From positions 1-64,000 of the forward strand of contig NZ_BMNH01000025.1 in NCBI RefSeq assembly GCF_014646355.1: 64,000 nt of DNA. The letters run 5' to 3'. Numbering within the stretch: the stretch's first letter is position 1; the number at the start of each line of letters is the position of its first letter. This stretch comes from Nonomuraea cavernae. GTDB lineage: Bacteria; Actinomycetota; Actinomycetes; Streptosporangiales; Streptosporangiaceae. The notes under the pieces are model-generated. The model was not told the DNA's origin, did not search any database, and saw only the letters and a program-made list of their open reading frames with translations. This document shows, piece by piece, positions 2,943 to 54,448 of the stretch. The position numbers were made by a program, and so were the translations under genes.

Positions 2943-5336
2943 GTGACGGTCACCGGGGACGCATCGACCGACCTCACCGAGAGGGCGCCGGCGGACGGGG
3001 AGGGGCCCGCGCCGCGCAGTGTCCGGATGCGGGTGCGTAAACGCGATGGCAGGACCGAACCGGTCGATGTCAGCAAGATCGTGCGCGCGGTGGAGCGCTG
3101 GGCGGGCGATCTGACCGACGTCGACCCGCTGCGGGTCGCCACCAGGACCATCAGCGGCCTGTACGACGGTGCCACCACCGCCGAGCTGGACCGGCTGTCG
3201 ATTCGGACCGCCGCCGAGATGATCGGGGAGGAACCGCAGTATTCACGCCTGGCGGCGCGGCTGCTGTCCGGCTCCATCGGCAAGGAGGTCCATGGGCAGG
3301 GGGTGGCCTCCTTCAGTCAGGCGATCCGCGTGGCCCACGCCGAAGGGCTCATCGGCGACGCCACGCTGGAGTTCGTCGACGCCAACGCCCGCAAACTCGA
3401 CGACGCGATCGACCCGGCCGCGGACCTGAGGTTCGAGTACTTCGGGTTGCGCACGGTCTACGACCGCTACCTGCTGCGCCACCCGTCCACCCGGCTGACG
3501 CTGGAGACACCGCAGTACTGGCTGCTGCGCGTGGCGTGCGGACTGGCCCGGACACCCGCCGAGGCGATCGGGTTCTACCGGCTCATGTCGTCGCTGGCCT
3601 ACCTGCCGAGCTCGCCGACGCTGTTCAACTCCGGCACCCGCCACACCCAGATGTCCTCGTGCTATCTGGTCGACTCGCCCCGCGACGAGCTGGGCTCCAT
3701 CTATGAGCGCTACGCCCAGGTCGCCCGGCTGTCGAAGTTCGCCGGCGGGATCGGCATCGCCTGGTCGCGGGTGCGCTCACGCGGCGCCCTGATCCGTGGC
3801 ACCAACGGACACTCCAACGGCATCGTCCCCTGGCTGCGGACCCTTGACGCCTCCGTGGCGGCCGTCAACCAGGGCGGTCGCCGCAAGGGCGCGGCCTGTG
3901 TCTACCTGGAGCCGTGGCATCCGGACGTCGAGGAGTTCCTGGAGCTTCGCGACAACACCGGCGAGGACGCCCGCCGCACGCACAATCTCAACCTGGCCAA
4001 CTGGATCCCCGACGAGTTCATGCGCCGGGTCGAGGCCGACGGGATGTGGTCGCTGTTCGACCCCGACGAGTTGCCCGAGCTGCCCGATCTGTGGGGGGAG
4101 GCGTTCGACGAGGTCTACCGCGCCGCCGAGCGGGCGGGCCGGTACGTGCGCCAGGTCAGGGCGCGCGACCTGTACGCCAGGATGATGCGTACTCTCGCGC
4201 AGACCGGCAACGGCTGGATGACCTTCAAGGACGCCGCCAACCGCCTGTGCAACCAGGCGGCCGAGCCCGGCAACGTGGTGCATCTGTCCAACCTGTGCAC
4301 GGAGATCATCGAGGTGTCCAGCGACGCCGAGACCGCCGTCTGCAACCTCGGCTCCGTCAACCTGTCCGCGCATGTGGCCGACGGGGGCATCGACTGGGAG
4401 CGGCTGCGCGCGACCGTGCGCACCGCGGTCACCTTCCTGGATCGCGTGATCGACGTCAACTACTACCCGAGTGAGCAGGCGGCGGCGAGCAACCCGCGCT
4501 GGCGGCCGGTCGGTCTGGGCGTGATGGGGCTGCAGGACGTGTTCTTCGCCCTGCGGCTGCCGTTCGACTCGGCCGAGGCCAAGGAGCTGTCCACCCGGAT
4601 CGCCGAGGAGATCTACCTGTCGGCGCTGGAGACGTCGGCGGGTCTGGCCGAGCGCTTCGGCGCCCATCCCGCCTATGACCGGACCTGGGCGGCGCGGGGA
4701 AGGCTGCAGCACGACCTGTGGGGCGAAAGCGGCACCCAGGGCGAGCGCTGGGCCGAGCTGCGTGGGCGCATCGCGGCCCATGGCCTGCGCAACTCGCTGC
4801 TGATCGCGATCGCGCCCACCGCCACCATCGCGTCGATCGCCGGCTGCTACGAGTGCGTCGAGCCGCAGGTGTCCAACCTGTTCAAGCGCGAGACCCTCAG
4901 CGGCGAGTTCATGCAGGTCAACAGCGCGCTGGTGGCCGAGCTCAAGGCGCGCGGGCTGTGGACCGAACACATCAGGGCCGCCGTCAAGCAGGCCGAGGGC
5001 TCGGTGCAGGGCATCGCCGAGCTGCCGGAGGACGTGCGGAGGCTGTTCCGCACGGCCTGGGAGCTGCCCCAGCGGGCGCTGATCGACATGGCGGCCGCGC
5101 GCTCGCCGTACATCGACCAGAGCCAGTCGCTCAACCTGTTCATGAGCGCCCCGACCATCGACAAGCTCTCCTCGATGTACCTGTACGCCTGGAAGTCCGG
5201 GCTGAAGACCACCTACTACCTGCGCTCACGTCCGGCCACCCGCATCCAGCAGGCCACCGTCCCCGTCGTGAACACCTCCGAGGAGGCTCTCGCCTGCTCG
5301 CTGGAGAACCCCGAGTCCTGCGAGGCCTGCCAGTGA
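2943..5336 (+). CDS. nrdA: class Ia ribonucleoside-diphosphate reductase, alpha subunit
   Basis: 797 residues; reduces ribonucleoside diphosphates to deoxy forms with NrdB. The GTG at 2943 is chosen because GAGGAG lies 6 nt upstream, after the riboswitch; the open frame further upstream crosses the aptamer and is not coding. Domains: ATP-cone (about 28-115, allosteric activity site), all-alpha RNR domain, then the 10-stranded barrel. Active-site residues visible: Cys240 (SSCYL), Cys452 and Glu454 (NLCTE, thiyl and acid), Cys467 (VCNLGS), the radical-transfer pair Tyr758-Tyr759 (TYYLRSRP), and the C-terminal swinging pair in SCEACQ. nrdB follows after 26 nt, forming an operon without nrdS. Regulation is by NrdR boxes and the B12 riboswitch. 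Confidence 0.97.
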   Translation: MTVTGDASTDLTERAPADGEGPAPRSVRMRVRKRDGRTEPVDVSKIVRAVERWAGDLTDVDPLRVATRTISGLYDGATTAELDRLSIRTAAEMIGEEPQYSRLAARLLSGSIGKEVHGQGVASFSQAIRVAHAEGLIGDATLEFVDANARKLDDAIDPAADLRFEYFGLRTVYDRYLLRHPSTRLTLETPQYWLLRVACGLARTPAEAIGFYRLMSSLAYLPSSPTLFNSGTRHTQMSSCYLVDSPRDELGSIYERYAQVARLSKFAGGIGIAWSRVRSRGALIRGTNGHSNGIVPWLRTLDASVAAVNQGGRRKGAACVYLEPWHPDVEEFLELRDNTGEDARRTHNLNLANWIPDEFMRRVEADGMWSLFDPDELPELPDLWGEAFDEVYRAAERAGRYVRQVRARDLYARMMRTLAQTGNGWMTFKDAANRLCNQAAEPGNVVHLSNLCTEIIEVSSDAETAVCNLGSVNLSAHVADGGIDWERLRATVRTAVTFLDRVIDVNYYPSEQAAASNPRWRPVGLGVMGLQDVFFALRLPFDSAEAKELSTRIAEEIYLSALETSAGLAERFGAHPAYDRTWAARGRLQHDLWGESGTQGERWAELRGRIAAHGLRNSLLIAIAPTATIASIAGCYECVEPQVSNLFKRETLSGEFMQVNSALVAELKARGLWTEHIRAAVKQAEGSVQGIAELPEDVRRLFRTAWELPQRALIDMAAARSPYIDQSQSLNLFMSAPTIDKLSSMYLYAWKSGLKTTYYLRSRPATRIQQATVPVVNTSEEALACSLENPESCEACQ

Positions 5337-37960: not shown

Positions 37961-40900
37961 ATGTCGGGTATGGACGGACCGGTCAGTGACGCACTGCTCC
38001 AACTGGGCAGGCACCTGCGTCCCGGCCGGGTCTCGGACGACCTGCGCACCCTGCACCAGATCGGCGGCCGGCAGGGCGACGCTTTTTACCGCGACCGGTG
38101 GAGCCACGACAAGGTGGTGCGCTCCACCCACGGCGTCAACTGCACCGGCTCCTGCTCCTGGAAGGTGTACGTCAAGGACGGCGTGATCACCTGGGAGGCG
38201 CAGCAGACCGACTATCCCAGCGTGGGCGGTGACCGGCCGGAGTACGAGCCGCGCGGCTGCCCGCGAGGGGCCGCCTTCTCCTGGTACACCTACTCGCCCA
38301 CCCGGGTGCGCTTCCCCTACGCGCGCGGCGTGCTGGTGGAGATGTACCGGGAGGCCAAGGCCAGGCTGGGTGACCCGGTCGCGGCCTGGGCGGAGATCAC
38401 CTCCGACCCGGTCAGGCGGCGGCGCTACCAGTCGGCCCGAGGCAAGGGCGGGCTGGTCCGGATCACCTGGGACGAGGCGACCGAGATCATCGCGGCGGCG
38501 CACGTGCACACCATCAAGGAGTACGGGCCCGACCGGGTGGCGGGCTTCTCGCCGATCCCGGCCATGTCGATGGCCTCGCACGCCGCCGGCTCCCGCTTCG
38601 TCTCGCTGATCGGCGGGGCGATGCTGTCGTTCTACGACTGGTACGCCGACCTGCCGGTGGCCTCCCCGCAGGTGTTCGGCGACCAGACCGACGTCCCGGA
38701 GTCGGCCGACTGGTGGGACGCGTCCTACCTCATGCTGTGGGGCTCGAACGTGCCGGTCACCCGCACCCCCGACGCGCACTTCATGGCCGAGGCCCGCTAC
38801 CGGGGTCAGAAGGTCGTGGTGCTCTCGCCCGACTACAGCGACGCGGCCAAGTTCGCCGACGAGTGGCTGGCCCCGCGTCCGGGCACCGACGGCGCGCTGG
38901 CCATGGCGATGGGCCAGGTGATCCTCAAGGAGTTCTTCACCGACCGCCCGACGCCCTACTTCACCGACTACGTCAAGCGTCACACCGACCTGCCGTTCCT
39001 GGTGCGGCTGCGCGAGCACGAGGGCGGCTCGTACCTGCCGGACAAGTTCCTCACCGCGGCCGACCTGGGGCAGGAGGGCAAGGAGGAGGCGTTCAAGACG
39101 GTCGTGCTGGACTCACGGACCGGCGAGGCGGCGGTGCCCAACGGCTCGCTCGGCTTCCGCTTCGCCGAGCAGGGGCAGGGCCGCTGGAACCTCGACCTGG
39201 GCGATCTCGACCCGGCCCTGACCGTCTACGGCGGCGAGGCCGTCACGGTCGCGCTGCCCCGCTTCGACACCGGCGACGACGGCGGCGTGCTGGAGCGCGG
39301 CGTCCCGGTCCGGCGGATCGGCGGCCACCTGGTCACCACCGTGTACGACCTGATGCTCGCCCAGTACGGCGTGGCCCGCGAGGGCCTGCCCGGCAGGTGG
39401 CCGGCCGGCTACGACGACGCGGACGAGCCGTACACTCCGGCCTGGCAGGAGCGCGTCACCTCGGTCCCGGCGGCCCAGGCGATCCGGGTCGCGCGCGAGT
39501 GGGCCCGCAACGCCGAGGAGTCCAACGGCCGCTCCATGATCATCATGGGGGCGGGGACCAACCACTGGTTCCACTCCGACACGATCTACCGCTCCTTCCT
39601 GGCGCTGACCACGCTGACCGGCTGCCAGGGCGTCAACGGCGGCGGCTGGGCCCACTACGTCGGCCAGGAGAAGTGCCGGCCGGTCACCGGCTGGGCGCAG
39701 CTGGCCGGCGGCCTCGACTGGTCGCGCCCGCCCCGGCAGATGATCGGCACCGCCTACTGGTACCTGCACACCGACCAGTGGCGCTACGACACCTACTCCG
39801 CCGACGTCGTCTCCTCCCCGCTCGGCGGCGGCGCGTTCGCCGGCAAGGCCACCGCGGACCTGCTGTCGCAGTCGGCGCGGATGGGCTGGATGCCGTCCTA
39901 CCCCACGTTCGACCGCAACCCGCTCGACCTGGCCGACGAGGCCGCCGCCGCGGGGCGCGAGGTCGGGCCGTACATCACCGAGCAGGTCGCCTCCGGCGGC
40001 CTCGGCTGGGCCTGCGAGGATCCCGACGCGCCCGCCAACTGGCCGCGCGTGCTGACCGTGTGGCGGGCCAACCTGCTGGGCTCGTCGGCCAAGGGCAACG
40101 AGTACTTCCTGCGCCACCTGCTGGGCACCGACTCGTCGGTGCGGGCCGAGGAGGCGGGGCCGGAGCAGCGGCCCGAGAGCCTCGCCTGGCCGGAGGAGGC
40201 GCCGAGGGGCAAGCTCGACCTGCTGCTGTCACTGGACTTCCGGATGACCTCCACCACGCTGTTCTCCGACATCGTGCTGCCCGCCGCCACCTGGTACGAG
40301 AAGCACGACCTGTCGTCCACCGACATGCACCCGTTCGTGCACGCCTTCTCCCCGGCCATCGACCCGCCCTGGCAGACCCGCACCGACTTCGCCGCGTTCC
40401 ACGCCATCGCCGCGGCCTTCAGCGCGCTGGCCGAGACGCACCTCGGCACCCGCACGGACGTCGTGGCCGTGCCGCTGCTGCACGACACGCCCGACGAGCT
40501 GGCCACCCCGCACGGGCGGGTGCGCGACTGGCGGACCATGGGCACGCGGCCGACCCCCGGCGTCGACTTCCCCAAGCTCGTCACCGTCGAACGCGACTAC
40601 GGCGCCGTCGCGGCGAAGATGGCCTCGCTCGGGCCGCTGACCGAACGGCTCGGCGCCACCACCAAGGGCCTCACCTTCGACCTGGCCGCCGAGGTCGAAC
40701 GGCTGGGCCGGACCAACGGCACGACGGCGGACGGGCGGCCGTCGCTGGCGACCGACATCGCGATGTGCGAGGCCATCCTGGCCCTGTCGGGCACCACGAA
40801 CGGCCGGCTGGCCGCCCAGGGCTTCGCCACGCTGGGCCGCCGTACCGGGACGTCCTTCGACGGCCTGGCCGACGAGCACCGGCGCATCACGTTCGCCGAC

Positions 40901-41608
40901 ACCCAGGCGCGGCCGGTGCCGGTGATCACCTCGCCCGAGTGGTCGGGCAGCGAGACGGGCGGGCGGCGCTACTCGGCGTTCACCACCAACGTCGAGCATC
41001 GCAAACCCTGGCACACCCTCACCGGCCGCCAGCACTTCTACCTCGACCACGACTGGATGCAGGAGGCGGGTGAGGCGCTGCCGGTCTACCGGCCGCCGTT
41101 GAACATGACCGCGATGTTCGGCGAGCCGGGCGTCGGCGAGTCGGGGGTGGACGGGATCACGGTGCGCTACCTCACCCCGCACTCCAAGTGGTCCATCCAC
41201 TCGGAGTACCAGGACAACCTGCTCATGCTCACCCTGTCACGCGGCGGGCCGACCATCTGGATGAGCCCGGCGGACGCGGCCAAGGCGGGCATCGACGACA
41301 ACGACTGGATCGAGGCGGTCAACCGCAACGGGGTCGTCGTCGCCCGCGCCGTCGTCTCGCACCGCATGCCCGAGGGCACCGTGTACATGTACCACGCGCA
41401 GGAACGCGTGGTGGACGTGCCCAAGACCGAGGCGTCCGGGCGGCGCGGCGGCATCCACAACTCGCTCACCCGCCTGCTGGTCAAACCCACCCACCTGATC
41501 GGCGGCTACGCCCAGCTGTCGTTCGCCTTCAACTACCTCGGGCCCACGGGAAACCAGCGCGACGAGGTCACCGTCATCCGGCGCCGTTCCCAGGAGGTCG
41601 ACTACTGA
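37961..41608 (+). CDS. narG: respiratory nitrate reductase, alpha subunit
   Basis: 1215 residues, molybdo-bis(MGD) catalytic subunit facing the cytoplasm; reduces nitrate to nitrite. The FS0 iron-sulfur cluster ligands are His57, Cys61, Cys65 and Cys100 (HGVNCTGSC and GCPRG). The molybdenum ligand Asp230 is in SFYDWYADLP, followed by QTDVPESADWW and WGSNVPVTRTPDAH as in E. coli NarG (Asp222). The MGD-binding C-terminal domain ends in LSFAFNYLGPTGNQRDEV. No Tat signal is present. Strong GAAAGAAGG ribosome site. The stop overlaps the narH start (TGATG). Confidence 0.97.
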   Translation: MSGMDGPVSDALLQLGRHLRPGRVSDDLRTLHQIGGRQGDAFYRDRWSHDKVVRSTHGVNCTGSCSWKVYVKDGVITWEAQQTDYPSVGGDRPEYEPRGCPRGAAFSWYTYSPTRVRFPYARGVLVEMYREAKARLGDPVAAWAEITSDPVRRRRYQSARGKGGLVRITWDEATEIIAAAHVHTIKEYGPDRVAGFSPIPAMSMASHAAGSRFVSLIGGAMLSFYDWYADLPVASPQVFGDQTDVPESADWWDASYLMLWGSNVPVTRTPDAHFMAEARYRGQKVVVLSPDYSDAAKFADEWLAPRPGTDGALAMAMGQVILKEFFTDRPTPYFTDYVKRHTDLPFLVRLREHEGGSYLPDKFLTAADLGQEGKEEAFKTVVLDSRTGEAAVPNGSLGFRFAEQGQGRWNLDLGDLDPALTVYGGEAVTVALPRFDTGDDGGVLERGVPVRRIGGHLVTTVYDLMLAQYGVAREGLPGRWPAGYDDADEPYTPAWQERVTSVPAAQAIRVAREWARNAEESNGRSMIIMGAGTNHWFHSDTIYRSFLALTTLTGCQGVNGGGWAHYVGQEKCRPVTGWAQLAGGLDWSRPPRQMIGTAYWYLHTDQWRYDTYSADVVSSPLGGGAFAGKATADLLSQSARMGWMPSYPTFDRNPLDLADEAAAAGREVGPYITEQVASGGLGWACEDPDAPANWPRVLTVWRANLLGSSAKGNEYFLRHLLGTDSSVRAEEAGPEQRPESLAWPEEAPRGKLDLLLSLDFRMTSTTLFSDIVLPAATWYEKHDLSSTDMHPFVHAFSPAIDPPWQTRTDFAAFHAIAAAFSALAETHLGTRTDVVAVPLLHDTPDELATPHGRVRDWRTMGTRPTPGVDFPKLVTVERDYGAVAAKMASLGPLTERLGATTKGLTFDLAAEVERLGRTNGTTADGRPSLATDIAMCEAILALSGTTNGRLAAQGFATLGRRTGTSFDGLADEHRRITFADTQARPVPVITSPEWSGSETGGRRYSAFTTNVEHRKPWHTLTGRQHFYLDHDWMQEAGEALPVYRPPLNMTAMFGEPGVGESGVDGITVRYLTPHSKWSIHSEYQDNLLMLTLSRGGPTIWMSPADAAKAGIDDNDWIEAVNRNGVVVARAVVSHRMPEGTVYMYHAQERVVDVPKTEASGRRGGIHNSLTRLLVKPTHLIGGYAQLSFAFNYLGPTGNQRDEVTVIRRRSQEVDY

Positions 41609-43260
41609 TGAGAGTCATGGGCCAGCTGGCCATGGTGATGAACCTGGACAAGTGCATCGGCTGCCACACCTGCTCGGTCACCTGCAAGCAGGCCTGGACC
41701 AACCGGGCCGGCACCGAGTACGTCTGGTTCAACAACGTCGAGACCCGTCCCGGGCAGGGCTACCCCCGCACCTACCAGGACCAGAAGAAGTGGAAGGGCG
41801 GCTGGGAGCTGAACGGGCGCGGCCGGCTGAAGCTGCGCGCCGGAGGCCGGCTGCACAAGCTCCTCACCATCTTCGCCAACCCGCTCATGCCGTCCATCGG
41901 CGACTACTACGAGCCGTGGACCTACGACTACGACCGGCTCTTCTCCGCCCCCGCCACCGAGGACACGCCGGTCGCCCGGCCCAGATCGCTCATCAGCGGC
42001 CTGCCGACGAAGATCACCTGGAGTGCCAACTGGGACGACAACCTGGCCGGCTCCCCGCAGCTGGCCTCCGCCGACCCGGTGCTGCGCAAGCTGTCGGACC
42101 AGGTGAAGCTGGAGTTCGAGCAGGCGTTCATGTTCTACCTGCCGCGCATCTGCGAGCACTGCCTCAACCCGTCGTGCGTGGCCTCCTGCCCGTCCGGCGC
42201 GATGTACAAGCGCGCCGAGGACGGCATCGTGCTGGTCGACCAGGACCGCTGCCGGGGCTGGCGCATGTGCGTGACCGGCTGCCCGTACAAGAAGGTGTAC
42301 TTCAACCACCGCACCGGCAAGGCCGAGAAGTGCACCTTCTGCTATCCCCGGGTCGAGGTGGGCATCCCGACCGTCTGCTCCGAGACGTGCGTGGGCCGGC
42401 TGCGCTACATCGGCCTGATCCTGTACGACGCCGACCGCGTCATGGACGCGGCCTCGGTGCCCGACGAGAAGGACCTGTACGAGGCGCAGAAGAGCGTGCT
42501 GCTGGACCCGGACGACCCCGAGGTGATCGCGGGCGCGCGCGCCTCCGGCATCCCCGAGGACTGGCTGGACGCGGCGCGCCGCTCGCCCATCCACAAACTG
42601 ATCTTCGAGTACGGCGTCGCGCTCCCGCTGCATCCCGAATACCGCACGATGCCGATGGTCTGGTACATCCCGCCCCTGTCGCCGATGGTCGACGCGCTGG
42701 CCGGCACCGGCCACGACGGCGAGGACGCGGGCAACCTGTTCGGCGCGATCGACTCCCTGCGCATCCCGGTCGAGTACCTGGCCGAGCTGTTCACGGCCGG
42801 CGACCCCGAGCCGGTGCGGGCCTCGTTGCGCCGCCTGGCCGCCATGCGCTCCTACATGCGCCGCCTCAACCTCGGCCAGAGCCCCGACGAGAGCATCGCC
42901 GCGTCGGCCGGCCTGACCGGCGAGCAGGTCGAGGGCATGCACCGGCTGCTCGCCCTGGCCCCCTACGCCGAGCGTTACGTGATCCCCAAGGCACACGCCG
43001 AGCAGGCCGGGGAGCTGGAGGAGTCGTTCGCCGGGTGCAGCCTCGACTACGAGGGCGGCCCCGGCATGGGCGGCCCGTTCGGCGAGGCGAGCGGCGTGCC
43101 CGCGCCGGTGGCGGTGGAGAACTTCCACGCGCTCAAGGACCGCCAGGGGAGCGGCGCCCTGGTCGATCCGGCCGACCGTTCCGGCCGCGTCAACCTGCTC
43201 AACTGGGACGGCAAGGGGATGCCCGACGGCCTGTTCCCCAAGCGCGAGGAGAAGTCATGA
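41608..43260 (+). CDS. narH: respiratory nitrate reductase, beta (iron-sulfur) subunit
   Basis: 550 residues. Carries four Fe-S clusters between NarI and NarG. Cys groups: CIGCHTCSVTC (about 16-26), CEHCLNPSCVASC (about 182-194), CRGWRMCVTGC (about 215-225; the Trp in place of the second Cys marks the 3Fe-4S cluster) and CTFCYPRVEVG-N5-CSETC (about 243-262). The remaining C-terminal part is the helical NarH domain. The usual tight overlap with narJ (ATGA) is present. Confidence 0.97.
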   Translation: MRVMGQLAMVMNLDKCIGCHTCSVTCKQAWTNRAGTEYVWFNNVETRPGQGYPRTYQDQKKWKGGWELNGRGRLKLRAGGRLHKLLTIFANPLMPSIGDYYEPWTYDYDRLFSAPATEDTPVARPRSLISGLPTKITWSANWDDNLAGSPQLASADPVLRKLSDQVKLEFEQAFMFYLPRICEHCLNPSCVASCPSGAMYKRAEDGIVLVDQDRCRGWRMCVTGCPYKKVYFNHRTGKAEKCTFCYPRVEVGIPTVCSETCVGRLRYIGLILYDADRVMDAASVPDEKDLYEAQKSVLLDPDDPEVIAGARASGIPEDWLDAARRSPIHKLIFEYGVALPLHPEYRTMPMVWYIPPLSPMVDALAGTGHDGEDAGNLFGAIDSLRIPVEYLAELFTAGDPEPVRASLRRLAAMRSYMRRLNLGQSPDESIAASAGLTGEQVEGMHRLLALAPYAERYVIPKAHAEQAGELEESFAGCSLDYEGGPGMGGPFGEASGVPAPVAVENFHALKDRQGSGALVDPADRSGRVNLLNWDGKGMPDGLFPKREEKS

Positions 43261-43865
43261 GCGACCGCGCGGTGCACCTGACGGCCTCGGTGCTGCTCGG
43301 CTACCCCGACGAGCGGCTGGCCGGGGCGGTGCCGCTGCTGGCCGAGACCGTGGCCGGGCTGCCGGCGGGCGAGCCGGCCAGGCGCCTGACCGCCTTCCTC
43401 GACCACCTGGCCGTCACCCCGGTGGCCGAGCTGGCCGAGCACTACGTGGCGACGTTCGACCTCAAGCGCCGCTGCTGCCTGTACCTCAGCTATTACGCCT
43501 ACGGCGACACCCGCAAGCGCGGGATGGCGCTGCTGCGGTTCAAGCACGCCTTCCGGGAGGCCGGGTTCGAGCTCGCCGACGGTGAGCTGCCCGACCACCT
43601 GGCCGCCGTCTGCGAGCTGTCCGGCCGGGGCGCGACCGAGCAGGCGACGCGGCTGCTCCGCGAGCACCGGGCGGGCCTGGAGACGCTGCTGGCCGCCCTG
43701 CGGGACGAACGCTCGCCCTACCAGGACGTGGTCGCCGCCGTCCTGGCCACCCTGCCGCCGCCGACCGCGCGCGAGCGCGCCGCCGTGGCCCGGCTGGCGG
43801 CCGAGGGGCCGCCGGTCGAAGAGGTCGGCCTGCAACCCTTCACGATCCCCGGAGACCCCCGATGA
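43257..43865 (+). CDS. narJ: nitrate reductase molybdenum cofactor assembly chaperone
   Basis: 202 residues, all-helical TorD/NarJ family. Binds the NarG N-terminus and permits cofactor insertion. Characteristic pattern: LTASVLLGYPDERL at the N-terminus and AEHYVATFDLKRRCCLYLSYY (in two overlapping pieces, about 60-80). Overlaps both neighbours by 4 nt. Confidence 0.95.
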   Translation: MSDRAVHLTASVLLGYPDERLAGAVPLLAETVAGLPAGEPARRLTAFLDHLAVTPVAELAEHYVATFDLKRRCCLYLSYYAYGDTRKRGMALLRFKHAFREAGFELADGELPDHLAAVCELSGRGATEQATRLLREHRAGLETLLAALRDERSPYQDVVAAVLATLPPPTARERAAVARLAAEGPPVEEVGLQPFTIPGDPR

Positions 43866-44590
43866 ACGCGCTGGACCTGCTCCTGTGGGTGGCCGCCCCG
43901 TACGTGGCCCTCACCGTGTTCGTGCTCGGCCACGTGTGGCGCTACCGCTACGACAAGTTCGGCTGGACGACGCGCTCCTCCCAGATGTACGAGTCGCGGC
44001 TGCTGCGCGTCGGCAGCCCGTTGTTCCACTTCGGTCTCCTGGTGGTGATCCTCGGCCACGTCGGCGGCCTGGTGATCCCGAAGTCCTGGACGGAGGCGGT
44101 GGGCGTCACCGAGGAGGCCTACCATCTGGTGGCCGTCGTGCTCGGCACCGTCGCGGGCGTGTGCACGCTGGCCGGCCTCGCCATTCTCGTCTACCGCCGC
44201 CGCACCGTGGGCCCCGTCTTCACCGCCACCACCCGCAACGACAAGCTCATGTACGCCGTCCTGGTCCTGGTGATCGTGCTGGGCCTGGCCGCGACCGTCG
44301 CCGCCAACGTCATCGGCGGCGGCTACGACTACCGTTCCACCATCTCGCCCTGGTTCCGGTCGGTCTTCGCCTTCCAGCCGAAGGCGGAGCTCATGGCCGG
44401 GGCGCCGCCGCTCTTCCAGGCCCACGCGCTCAGCGCGCTCCTGCTCTTCGCGATCTGGCCGTTCACCCGGCTGGTGCACATGCTGACCGCGCCGATCGGC
44501 TACCTCACGCGCCCGTACATCGTCTACCGCTCCCGCGACGACCGGCCGGGCCGCCCGGCGCGAGGCTGGGAGCCGAGCAACCGGCCCTGA
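43862..44590 (+). CDS. narI: respiratory nitrate reductase, gamma (cytochrome b) subunit
   Basis: 242 residues, five membrane helices. Takes electrons from the quinol pool and passes them to NarH. Heme b ligand His residues are seen in pairs: SPLFHFGLLVVILGH (about 57-68) and FQAHALSALLLF-N8-VHML (about 184-206). End of the nar operon; the convergent SulP gene begins 33 bp further on, with no obvious hairpin between. Confidence 0.96.
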   Translation: MNALDLLLWVAAPYVALTVFVLGHVWRYRYDKFGWTTRSSQMYESRLLRVGSPLFHFGLLVVILGHVGGLVIPKSWTEAVGVTEEAYHLVAVVLGTVAGVCTLAGLAILVYRRRTVGPVFTATTRNDKLMYAVLVLVIVLGLAATVAANVIGGGYDYRSTISPWFRSVFAFQPKAELMAGAPPLFQAHALSALLLFAIWPFTRLVHMLTAPIGYLTRPYIVYRSRDDRPGRPARGWEPSNRP

Positions 44591-51374: not shown

Positions 51375-54300
51375 TCAGAGCCCGTGGACGCGGCGGCCGG
51401 TGATCCGCTGCGGCACGATGCGGATGTACAGCTCGCGCTCACCGCCCGCCCAGGGGGTCACGCCGGAGCCGACCACCCGCTCGATCTCGTCGGGCGGCAC
51501 ATGGTGGGCCGGCCCCTGGATGAGCACGCTCCAGCCCTCGCGCCTGGCCTCGTCGATCCGGTCGACCTCGAAGCCGATCTTGATGTCCATGCCCTCCACG
51601 CCGGTGCGCAGGTCGCGGTCCATCGGGCCGCCGTGGGCCGTGCGGAAGACGATCGCGCCCTCGTGCAGCCGGTAGTTGACGGGCAGCACGGTGGGCCCGT
51701 ACAGGCCGCTGAAGGCGACCCGGCCGACGCCGCCGGGCGCGACCAGGCGCAGGCACTCGTCACGGTCGAGGGACTCGAGCATCGGATGGGCGGCCGCCGG
51801 GCCGCGTCCCGGCGGCCGGTCGAGGCCGCCGCCGAGCAGGCTCTCGACGGTCGTCTCCAGGGCGGCCGCGAGCCGCCCCAGTGTGCCCGTGGCGAGCGTC
51901 TCGGGGTTCTCCTCCAGGTACTTGACGTAGCCGGCGGCCATGCCGGTGCGCTCGGCGAGCTGCTCGCGGGTCAGCCCGAGGCGTTCGCGGTGGTAGATGA
52001 TGCGGCGTCCGAGGTCGCCCGTCGCGGCCATGCTGGTCCCCCCTTGATCGCTCGTGAACGTACGGCTGGCGCCGCACCTGAGCATGTTCTCGTTGATCCA
52101 CGCGCTCTCGCGGTCGGCGTCGATGAAGAACCGCGCGCCCCGGTAGCGGATCGTCAGCGACATCGTGCCCAGCCGGTCGGGCAGCACCGGGTTGAGACGC
52201 AGCCCGTCGCGGCGCAGCTCCATCCCCAGGTAGCAGCGCTGCAGCAGGTCGAGCGTGCCCGCCATGGCGCCGAGGTGGACGCCTTCGGCGGTGGTGCCGT
52301 GCTGGACGTCCTGGATGTCACTGATCAGGGCCTCGTGGAAGAACCGCCAGGATCCGGCCCGGTCCGATCGGGCGAGCACCCAGGCGTGCACCAGGGCGCT
52401 CAGGGTGGAACCGTGGCTGGTGCGCGCGAGGTAGTAGTGGATCGTGCGGTGGATGAGGCCGGGCTCGCACGGATAGCCGAGCCGCAGCAGCAGCGCCAGC
52501 AGCTCGTCGGCCGTCAGCAGGTAGAAGAGCATCAGCGTGTCGGCCTGCTTGGACGCCCGGTAGCGGTTGACGTCGTCGCCGGCGGCCTCCAGCGCCCGGT
52601 CGAGCCGCCGCACGCCGCGATAGCGCTCCCAGTCGAGCTCCTCCAGGCCGGCGTAGCCGGTGAACTGGCTGATCACGCCGTCGTGGAAGTCGACCCGCAT
52701 CCGCCGGGTGATGTCGTGCCAGCGCTCGGCCTCCTCGGCCGTGCCCTGGAACTCGGGGAACAGCTCCAGCGTGTCGGCGGCCCGCAGCAGCAGCCAGACG
52801 GTCATCACGTTGGTGTAGGCGTTGTTGTCCAGGCCGGGGGACTCGGCCCCGGGGTAACCGTCGTGATACTCGTCGGGGCCCATGACGCCCCGGATCTCGT
52901 AGCGGCCCGACTCCGGGTCCGCCTCGGCCAGCGAGGAGAAGAACCTGGCGATGTCGATCAGCAGCTCCGCGCACCACGGCCGCATCGTGCCGGTCGCCAG
53001 GTAGTGCTGCCAGATGTTGTAGGCGATGGCCAGGCCGGCGTGCCGCTGCAGGTGGGAGTGGTCGGGCAGCCAGCGGCCGGAGTCGGGGTTGAGATGCAGG
53101 GTCTGGGTCTGCTCGGTGCCGTCGCTCGCGCTCTGCCAGGGGAACATCGCGCCGGCGAACCCCGCGGCGCGGGCCGCCGCCCTGGCCTCGGGCAGCCGCC
53201 GCCACCGGTAACGCAGCAGGCCGAGGGAGATGTCGGGAAAGCGGAGGTTCAGCCATGGCATCACGAACAGCTCGTCCCAGAACACGTGCCCCCGGTACGC
53301 CTCGCCGTGCAGGCCCCGCGCGGGCACGCCCGCGTCGATGTCGGCCGTGTGCGGGGAGAGCGTCTGCAACAGGTGGAAGACGTGCAGGTGGACGATCTGT
53401 GAGGTCTCCGGCCCGTCGACGTCGAGCCGGGCGCGCTCCCACAGGCGGTCCCAGGCGGCCCGGTGCCGGGCCAGCAGCGTGTCGAAGCCCGGCGCCAGCC
53501 GCACGGCCCGCACCGCGGTGGAGCGGGCGTCGCTGATCGCGGGATCGCGTGAGGTCACCAGGGCGACGACCTTGGACAGCGTCACCGGCTCGCCCTCGAC
53601 CAGGTCGAGCCGGTACTCCGCGGTGATCCGGTCGGGTTCGCGGGTCGCCTCGCGGGCGGGGACGGCGCAGTCGGCGCGGGCCGCGAAGGCGACCGTGATG
53701 CCGGAGGAGCGGGTGGTGGCGGTCAGCCAGGCCAGGTCGTCCTCGATGCCGGTGGCGTGGCCGGTCAGATGGTCGCCGCGCAGCTCGCGGTAGCGGGCGA
53801 CCCCCCGGTTGGCCACCCGGCCGTCGAGTACGGTCCGCACCCGCATCGGGCCCGACCAGTTCTCCGGGACGAACTCGGTCTCCAGCGCGGCCAGGCGCGG
53901 GTCGGCCATGGACACCAGGCGGCGCTGCCGCACCCGCGTGACGCGGCCCGCCGCGTCACGCCAGCGCAGCAGCCGCAGCAGCACCCCGTGACGCAGGTCC
54001 AGTTCGTGCCGGTAGTCGAGCAGGCCGTCCGTCGCCGGGTCGAACCAGTCGGAGCCGGGCGTGGCGAAGGCCACCGGCAGCCAGTCGGGCAGGTTGACCA
54101 TGTCCTCGTTGGACACCACGCGCCCGGCGACAGTGGAGTCGAGGCGGTTGAAGCAGCCCGCCGCGTAGGTGCCGGGCGTCCGGCCGGCGCCGTCGGGCGT
54201 CGCCCCCCGGGTGGCGAACCGGCCGTTGCCCAGCGTGCACAGCGCCTCCCGGAGCCCTTCGGCCGCCGGGTCGAAGCCCTCGAAGTCCAGGGTCCACGGG

Positions 54301-54383
54301 TTCACCGGCGGCTCACCGGGACGGCTCGCGCGCGGCGGCGCGTACTCCGGGCGGGTCCAGGGATCGATGACGGCCATGCGCAC
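51375..54383 (-). CDS. GH65 phosphorylase fused in frame to HTH-XRE / pyridoxamine-oxidase-like domain
   Basis: One open frame of 1002 residues from GTG 54383 (GGGGG upstream); ATG 54377 is an alternative. Residues 1 to about 770 are a family 65 glycoside phosphorylase (kojibiose, trehalose or maltose type): general acid Glu505 in GPDEYHDG, phosphate loop HGSTLS and HGTTAEGVHLGAMAGT, and KQADT. The usual C-terminal beta-sandwich seems to be cut short. From Met785 a second unit follows without a stop: an XRE helix-turn-helix (GDLGRRIIYHRERLGLTREQ, about 788-845) and a split-barrel flavin-binding domain (about 870-1000). Met785 (ATG 52029-52031) has AAGGGGGG at the ideal 6-nt distance, so a separate 218-aa product is likely. 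Both GH65 and split-barrel proteins occur in DosR regulons. Confidence 0.85.
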   Translation of the reverse strand: MRMAVIDPWTRPEYAPPRASRPGEPPVNPWTLDFEGFDPAAEGLREALCTLGNGRFATRGATPDGAGRTPGTYAAGCFNRLDSTVAGRVVSNEDMVNLPDWLPVAFATPGSDWFDPATDGLLDYRHELDLRHGVLLRLLRWRDAAGRVTRVRQRRLVSMADPRLAALETEFVPENWSGPMRVRTVLDGRVANRGVARYRELRGDHLTGHATGIEDDLAWLTATTRSSGITVAFAARADCAVPAREATREPDRITAEYRLDLVEGEPVTLSKVVALVTSRDPAISDARSTAVRAVRLAPGFDTLLARHRAAWDRLWERARLDVDGPETSQIVHLHVFHLLQTLSPHTADIDAGVPARGLHGEAYRGHVFWDELFVMPWLNLRFPDISLGLLRYRWRRLPEARAAARAAGFAGAMFPWQSASDGTEQTQTLHLNPDSGRWLPDHSHLQRHAGLAIAYNIWQHYLATGTMRPWCAELLIDIARFFSSLAEADPESGRYEIRGVMGPDEYHDGYPGAESPGLDNNAYTNVMTVWLLLRAADTLELFPEFQGTAEEAERWHDITRRMRVDFHDGVISQFTGYAGLEELDWERYRGVRRLDRALEAAGDDVNRYRASKQADTLMLFYLLTADELLALLLRLGYPCEPGLIHRTIHYYLARTSHGSTLSALVHAWVLARSDRAGSWRFFHEALISDIQDVQHGTTAEGVHLGAMAGTLDLLQRCYLGMELRRDGLRLNPVLPDRLGTMSLTIRYRGARFFIDADRESAWINENMLRCGASRTFTSDQGGTSMAATGDLGRRIIYHRERLGLTREQLAERTGMAAGYVKYLEENPETLATGTLGRLAAALETTVESLLGGGLDRPPGRGPAAAHPMLESLDRDECLRLVAPGGVGRVAFSGLYGPTVLPVNYRLHEGAIVFRTAHGGPMDRDLRTGVEGMDIKIGFEVDRIDEARREGWSVLIQGPAHHVPPDEIERVVGSGVTPWAGGERELYIRIVPQRITGRRVHGL

Positions 54384-54412: not shown

Positions 54413-54448
54413 TGGCCCTTGGCCCTGCCCGGACGGGACCTACGGCCC
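54413..54448. promoter_or_regulatory. DosR boxes between GH65 and the second usp gene
   Basis: GGGACCTACGGCCC at 54435-54448 is a perfect match to GGGACC-N3-GGCCC; exactly 22 bp upstream TGGCCCTTGGCCCT (54413-54426) is a weaker copy. The region is the shared divergent promoter. Confidence 0.85.

Follow-up and report, generated by a model that had tools for sequence, protein, structure and literature searches.

GH65 inverting alpha-glucoside phosphorylases, such as the kojibiose phosphorylase 3WIQ, use a conserved glutamate as general acid and hold phosphate in a site formed by two consecutive serines, a histidine and a lysine, with Pro-Ala occurring in the hydrolase FjGH65A (PMC8626586, excerpted text, which is also our source for the roles of the catalytic and phosphate-site residues discussed below). 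On the regulatory side, stand-alone proteins of Actinomycetota, e.g., those of some Streptomyces, combine a helix-turn-helix (HTH) with a PNPOx-like split barrel, and the split-barrel fold also occurs, without HTH and without GH65, in the FAD-binding protein MSMEG_5243 (6ECI) and in 3FKH of C. glutamicum. In-frame internal starts in fused genes are a kind of arrangement already known; for instance, Cas11 is made from within another cas gene (PMC11899642, excerpted text). Among the open-access matches listed, no fusion of GH65 with an HTH was found in the literature.

In the window analysed here, i.e., the whole stretch of 64 kb, these two families are encoded by a single minus-strand frame, which begins with a GTG at 54383 (an in-frame ATG follows two codons on, at 54377) and runs to 51375 without a stop across 1002 codons. 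The domains of the 1002-aa protein were called with Pfam profiles, and the features are the following:

51375..54383, minus strand: whole fused ORF, 1002 aa, GH65 phosphorylase, linker, XRE HTH and PNPOx-like split barrel (open frame, Pfam)
53547..54281, minus strand: GH65 N-terminal domain, residues 35-279 (Pfam PF03636 Glyco_hydro_65N, E 1e-65)
52251..53387, minus strand: GH65 catalytic domain, residues 333-711 (Pfam PF03632 Glyco_hydro_65m, E 3e-114)
Residues 612-615, minus strand: KQAD motif of the GH65 catalytic domain (alignment to 3WIQ, conservation in 34 loci)
52056..52223, minus strand: GH65 C-terminal beta domain, residues 721-776 (Pfam PF03633 partial, tail comparison, model)
52032..52055, minus strand: translated linker with internal ribosome-binding site, residues 777-784 (joint comparison, model)
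52038..52045, minus strand: internal Shine-Dalgarno (SD) AAGGGGGG, 6 nt before the internal ATG (sequence, anti-SD energy, conservation)
51375..52031, minus strand: embedded 3' gene from Met785, predicted free 218-aa HTH-PNPOx protein (start conservation, relics, trees)
51834..52013, minus strand: XRE-type HTH, residues 791-850 (Pfam HTH_3 and models)
51390..51767, minus strand: PNPOx-like split barrel, Pyridox_ox_2, residues 873-998 (Pfam PF12900, E 3.7e-27; Foldseek to 3FKH and 6ECI)

The first-pass annotation had read this frame as a true GH65-HTH-split-barrel fusion, which the uninterrupted frame, the Pfam domains of both halves and the recurrence of the joint throughout the genus bear out. 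Judging from sequence comparison, the locus is probably a composite gene with two products, a 110-kDa fusion and a free 24-kDa regulator. It would resemble the Cas11 case, as far as the excerpt of PMC11899642 describes it, in that a second product is predicted to arise from an internal ribosome site in the same frame, and it differs in that its inner product corresponds to a recognisable gene also found by itself, and its outer part to an unrelated metabolic enzyme.

The full-length AlphaFold2 model, built on a 37-sequence alignment, has a mean pLDDT of 81.9, with low confidence at residues 782-788. Foldseek matched the fold of the whole GH65 part to 9LB6 (E 1.5e-52), whose PDB title names a trehalose-6-phosphate enzyme, and to 3WIQ (E 6.5e-46). 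Glu505, in the sequence GPDEYH, aligns with GPDEFH of 3WIQ and is kept, as is the KQAD motif, in all 34 fused loci found in the genus (see below). In the phosphate-site-like segment HGSTLS, Ser659-Thr660 aligns with the Ser-Ser of 3WIQ; all 34 fused loci keep Ser-Thr, a conservative change that is not hydrolase-like. The GH65 part of the fusion likely performs phosphorolysis, because the general acid is retained and Ser-Thr stands where known phosphorylases have Ser-Ser. Its C-terminal domain departs from that of other GH65 phosphorylases and is continued in frame into the regulator: the Glyco_hydro_65C match covers residues 721-761 and 41 of 62 profile positions (E 2.5e-7, above cut-off), and the model predicts strands up to residue 776. 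In the tail alignment, the inspected members of the genus, fused and unfused, are about 20 residues shorter than those of other genera, and the tail of one locus (L097) is shorter still, and different. The shortened sandwich pointed out in the first-pass annotation is thus real in comparison with other genera, but it cannot be taken as a scar of the fusion, since unfused members of the genus share it.

In the second half of the protein, the HTH_3 profile matches residues 799-847 (E 6.8e-6, above cut-off), and the AlphaFold2 model places the HTH helices at residues 791-849 and the beginning of the split barrel at residue 874. Modelled separately, the 218-aa part matched 3FKH (E 1.3e-12) and 6ECI (E about 1e-12) in Foldseek, with target-normalised TM values of 0.69-0.87 for the split-barrel fold, and identity to the stand-alone HTH-PNPOx proteins of Actinomycetota, which have the same two domains, reaches 43-48%. 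According to the titles of the Foldseek matches, members of the split-barrel family use FMN, FAD, F420 or heme as cofactors. The regulator half resembles an XRE factor equipped with a cofactor-binding barrel, and DNA and flavin binding would be expected of it from its family.

A search of 54 genomes of the genus, which going by named relatives is Nonomuraea, recovered an in-frame open joint at 34 loci, distributed over 32 of the genomes. The closest named matches, all from Nonomuraea (L001-L003, with 71-72% across almost the entire protein), are duplicates of three of these loci and were counted once. One of the 34 loci (L089) is truncated within the 3' part, where its contig ends, and at two others (G019 C85 and G005 C65) a flagged TGA precedes the start of the GH65 match, with no stop from there to the internal ATG. 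The first-pass annotation had recommended looking in orthologues for a stop before the HTH, and would have counted a constant two-gene arrangement in relatives against its reading; no such stop is present in these independent assemblies, and the fused gene is widespread in the genus.

Counted from GH65 residue 757 to the internal ATG, the linker measures 60 nt at 21 loci, 81 at seven, 66 at two, 75 at two, 69 at one and 39 at one. These lengths require at least six changes on the GH65 tree, every one a multiple of 3; six in-frame indels in a row would occur by chance with a probability of about 0.001, assuming that about one third of indels are in frame and bearing in mind that the 34 loci were chosen for being in frame, with an ATGA split pair (L092) and a decayed locus (L090) excluded. 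In a neutral substitution simulation at matched divergence, the probability of finding no stop in any of the 34 tips was 0.03, and the stop-free linker alone is therefore modest evidence. Mean column entropy is higher in the linker (1.37) than in any other zone (0.55-0.79), and dN/dS there is 0.59, as against 0.35 in the GH65 catalytic domain and 0.30 in the HTH (range for the domains, 0.30-0.43).

In the GH65 tree (63 rows), G037 and G038 split off first within the genus and the fused loci occupy what remains of it; GH65 genes lacking the 3' part, the decayed fusion L090 and the split pair L092 are nested among them. In L090 (G006 C272), the HTH-PNPOx part has decayed and the GH65 frame is open up to the joint. 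Seven loci of the genus (L091, L093-L098) have a GH65 gene without an adjoining 3' gene; together with the decay of L090 and the ATGA split of L092, they indicate that the fusion is dispensable. We also analysed a further set of 52 loci, mostly outside the genus, which includes some duplicates and some loci cut by contig ends. A same-strand 3' partner of GH65 is present in six of them and was not seen in 46. Three of the six, from three other genera, are in frame at the joint: L108 is a complete GH65-HTH-PNPOx fusion with a full-length GH65 tail, L127 has a broken HTH, and in L130 (G080, about 3436-4019) GH65 is fused straight to the PNPOx-like barrel without HTH, with an internal SD and ATG. 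In the remaining three, the two genes overlap as ATGA (L123, as in L092), are separate (L193), or lie about 1.1 kb apart (L205). A stop-start overlap and an HTH remnant are visible in L132, which is counted among the 46 loci without partner. A further fusion suspected in G177 from open-frame lengths was rejected, a stop and about 170 nt separating the two genes (L193).

The partner states among the 52 loci and the GH65 tree indicate that the adjacency of GH65 and the 3' gene is old and that the joint has repeatedly arisen or disappeared. A deletion had been suggested in the first-pass annotation as the event joining the two genes. This idea had to be abandoned: the unfused L091, L095 and L096 have equally short tails, the fused L108 has a full one, and the predicted sheet runs to about residue 776. 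From these comparisons, the best explanation of the joint is that two closely spaced genes lost the stop between them or shifted in frame, since relatives carry the two genes adjacent, in two cases overlapping as ATGA. The ancestor probably had two adjacent, sometimes overlapping genes, GH65 followed by HTH-PNPOx; disappearance of the stop or of the frame difference would have joined them, the ribosome site of the downstream gene being retained.

The 3' gene also occurs on its own, and both after decay of GH65 and in 3' copies moved to other places the regulator has been retained with its internal start. In three loci (L140, L141 and L142), GH65 has decayed or been lost, and a linker relic (clear in all three), the SD, the ATG and the 3' frame remain. 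Among 16 stand-alone copies, upstream linker relics are clear in three (L174, L184 and L186; 0 of 60 shuffles reach the score) and borderline in four (L173, L178, L179 and L183; 0-2 of 60 shuffles), and the upstream regions of the other nine give no linker signal beyond shuffles. On the HTH-PNPOx tree (64 rows), whose support is moderate or weak (15 of 61 inner branches starred), stand-alone and fused copies are intermingled, several of the former nesting among the latter; given this mixing and the weak support, the stand-alone state may in part be ancestral. Streptomyces presents another arrangement: at seven of 52 loci (L004-L055), namely L017, L019, L024, L028, L029, L031 and L040, a separate, unfused HTH-PNPOx gene on the strand of GH65 is located about 1.4 kb upstream of it, and not downstream, leaving a gap of roughly 0.8 kb. 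In L017, this gap contains a universal stress protein-like sequence. The GH65 and HTH-PNPOx families thus travel together in different orders.

One could suppose that only the GH65 enzyme and the free regulator are selected, and that the fused polypeptide, a by-product of stop loss between two coupled genes, is simply tolerated. Such an explanation would agree with the frequent occurrence of the 3' gene alone, with the weak constraint on the linker protein sequence and with the unfused forms (the ATGA overlaps of L092 and L123, the stop-start overlap of L132 and the separate genes of L193). We nevertheless consider it rather unlikely, because 34 loci with varying linker lengths are all in frame without a stop having reappeared, and because in-frame joints are found in three other genera, complete in L108, without HTH in L130 and with a broken HTH in L127.

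Met785 is encoded by the ATG at 52031-52029, from which 218 aa extend to the stop, and its equivalent is kept in 34/34 fused loci, within the most variable stretch of the protein. The anti-SD duplex energy of this internal site is -7.5 kcal/mol or lower in all 34 loci (mean -9.1), whereas the other in-frame ATGs (n=514) have a mean of -3.0 kcal/mol and only 2.3% of them reach -7.5, a value reached by 10% of in-frame GTGs (n=1056). The internal ATG ranks first by this energy among in-frame ATGs in 29 of the 34 ORFs. The residues encoded by the SD differ among loci (RGE, GGE, QGG, EEK, KEM, MEE, DKE) and its purine core is found in two codon registers (22 loci vs 12), pointing to a constraint at the RNA level. 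In addition, the 80-nt segment at the internal start is less structured than other segments of the same ORF in 34/34 loci (mean z 1.62) and less structured than its own shuffles in 32/34. These comparisons indicate that the internal start codon and its SD are conserved beyond protein constraint at all 34 loci, and they lend weight to the separate 218-aa product that had been predicted from the strength of this start in the window. The simplest account would be a gene with two products in which the inner start and the joint are both under selection.

Internal SD-like sites in general can be inactive, and the fusion frame is conserved, so that the 1002-aa fusion might be the sole product, the internal SD and ATG being inert relics of a former downstream gene. 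This is very improbable in our opinion: the SD is kept in 34/34 loci while the surrounding codons change, the site is unstructured in all of them, and the 3' gene outlives the decay of GH65 with the same start. An artefact of sequencing or assembly, or a frame open by chance, of the kind that does arise in GC-rich genomes (a 737-aa case is present in the same window), can practically be discarded, both halves being real families in one frame and the same joint recurring in 31 further assemblies from the genus.

The 737-aa frame (41652-43862, plus strand) was considered as a second fusion in the window and rejected. Its C-terminal part is narJ, and its N-terminal part is a spurious frame, since NarH-like sequence sits in frame 41188-43260, which we take to be NarH-like from a Cys motif recognised by eye. 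It exemplifies a long spurious upstream extension in GC-rich DNA.

Several genes near the fused ORF, narJ among them, look hypoxia- or dormancy-like:

37961-41605: narG
43862-44587: narI, with narJ also nearby
46820: universal stress protein
47689: CBS protein
48184: flavodoxin-like protein
48902: P-type ATPase
54503: divergent universal stress protein, upstream of the fused ORF
55458: GAF-GAF histidine kinase, upstream of the fused ORF

A gene resembling the upstream universal stress protein is present at 9 of the 34 fused loci, most of which were read with 1.5-kb flanks only. The excerpted text of PMC5069765, which provided the consensus of the DevR/OsdR box, lists SCO0214, a PNPOx, among predicted OsdR targets. 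Scored as GGGNCNNNNGNCCC, this box is not enriched in the 64-kb window (9 found, 10.1 expected) or upstream of the fused loci (3 of 34 regions, 5.8 expected). A DevR/OsdR-like palindrome, GGGCCGTAGGTCCC (minus strand), is located at 54435-54448, 52-65 nt before the GTG start. Of the earlier proposal that the two joined genes belong to a DosR regulon, the neighbours agree with it and the promoter motif shows no enrichment; membership of the fused gene is suggested by the neighbours only.

If the locus is one composite gene with two products, ribosomes starting at the 5' end would make the 110-kDa GH65-HTH-split-barrel fusion, and those starting at the embedded SD and ATG would make the 24-kDa HTH-split-barrel protein alone. 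Split barrels of the PNPOx-like family are usually dimers, so free and fused copies could pair, which would link a sugar phosphorylase with a regulator that binds DNA and probably a cofactor, and might serve as a sensor or autoregulator in an anaerobic or stress gene neighbourhood. More tentatively, and with considerable doubt, the fusion could be an enzyme-gated transcription factor, whose DNA binding would be controlled by the occupancy of GH65 with sugar or phosphate together with the state of a flavin or heme in the split barrel; by pairing with the fusion, the free regulator would determine how many dimers carry the enzyme relative to those that do not. If this were true, one gene would constitute a self-adjusting metabolic switch.

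The genus-wide association of a fusion with an embedded usable gene offers a clean natural case in which to ask why a regulator would exist in fused and free copies, and it makes testable a connection between alpha-glucoside phosphorolysis and a regulator that probably senses redox state or a cofactor. In these genomes, the predicted 24-kDa product would escape annotation pipelines that allow a single ORF per frame.
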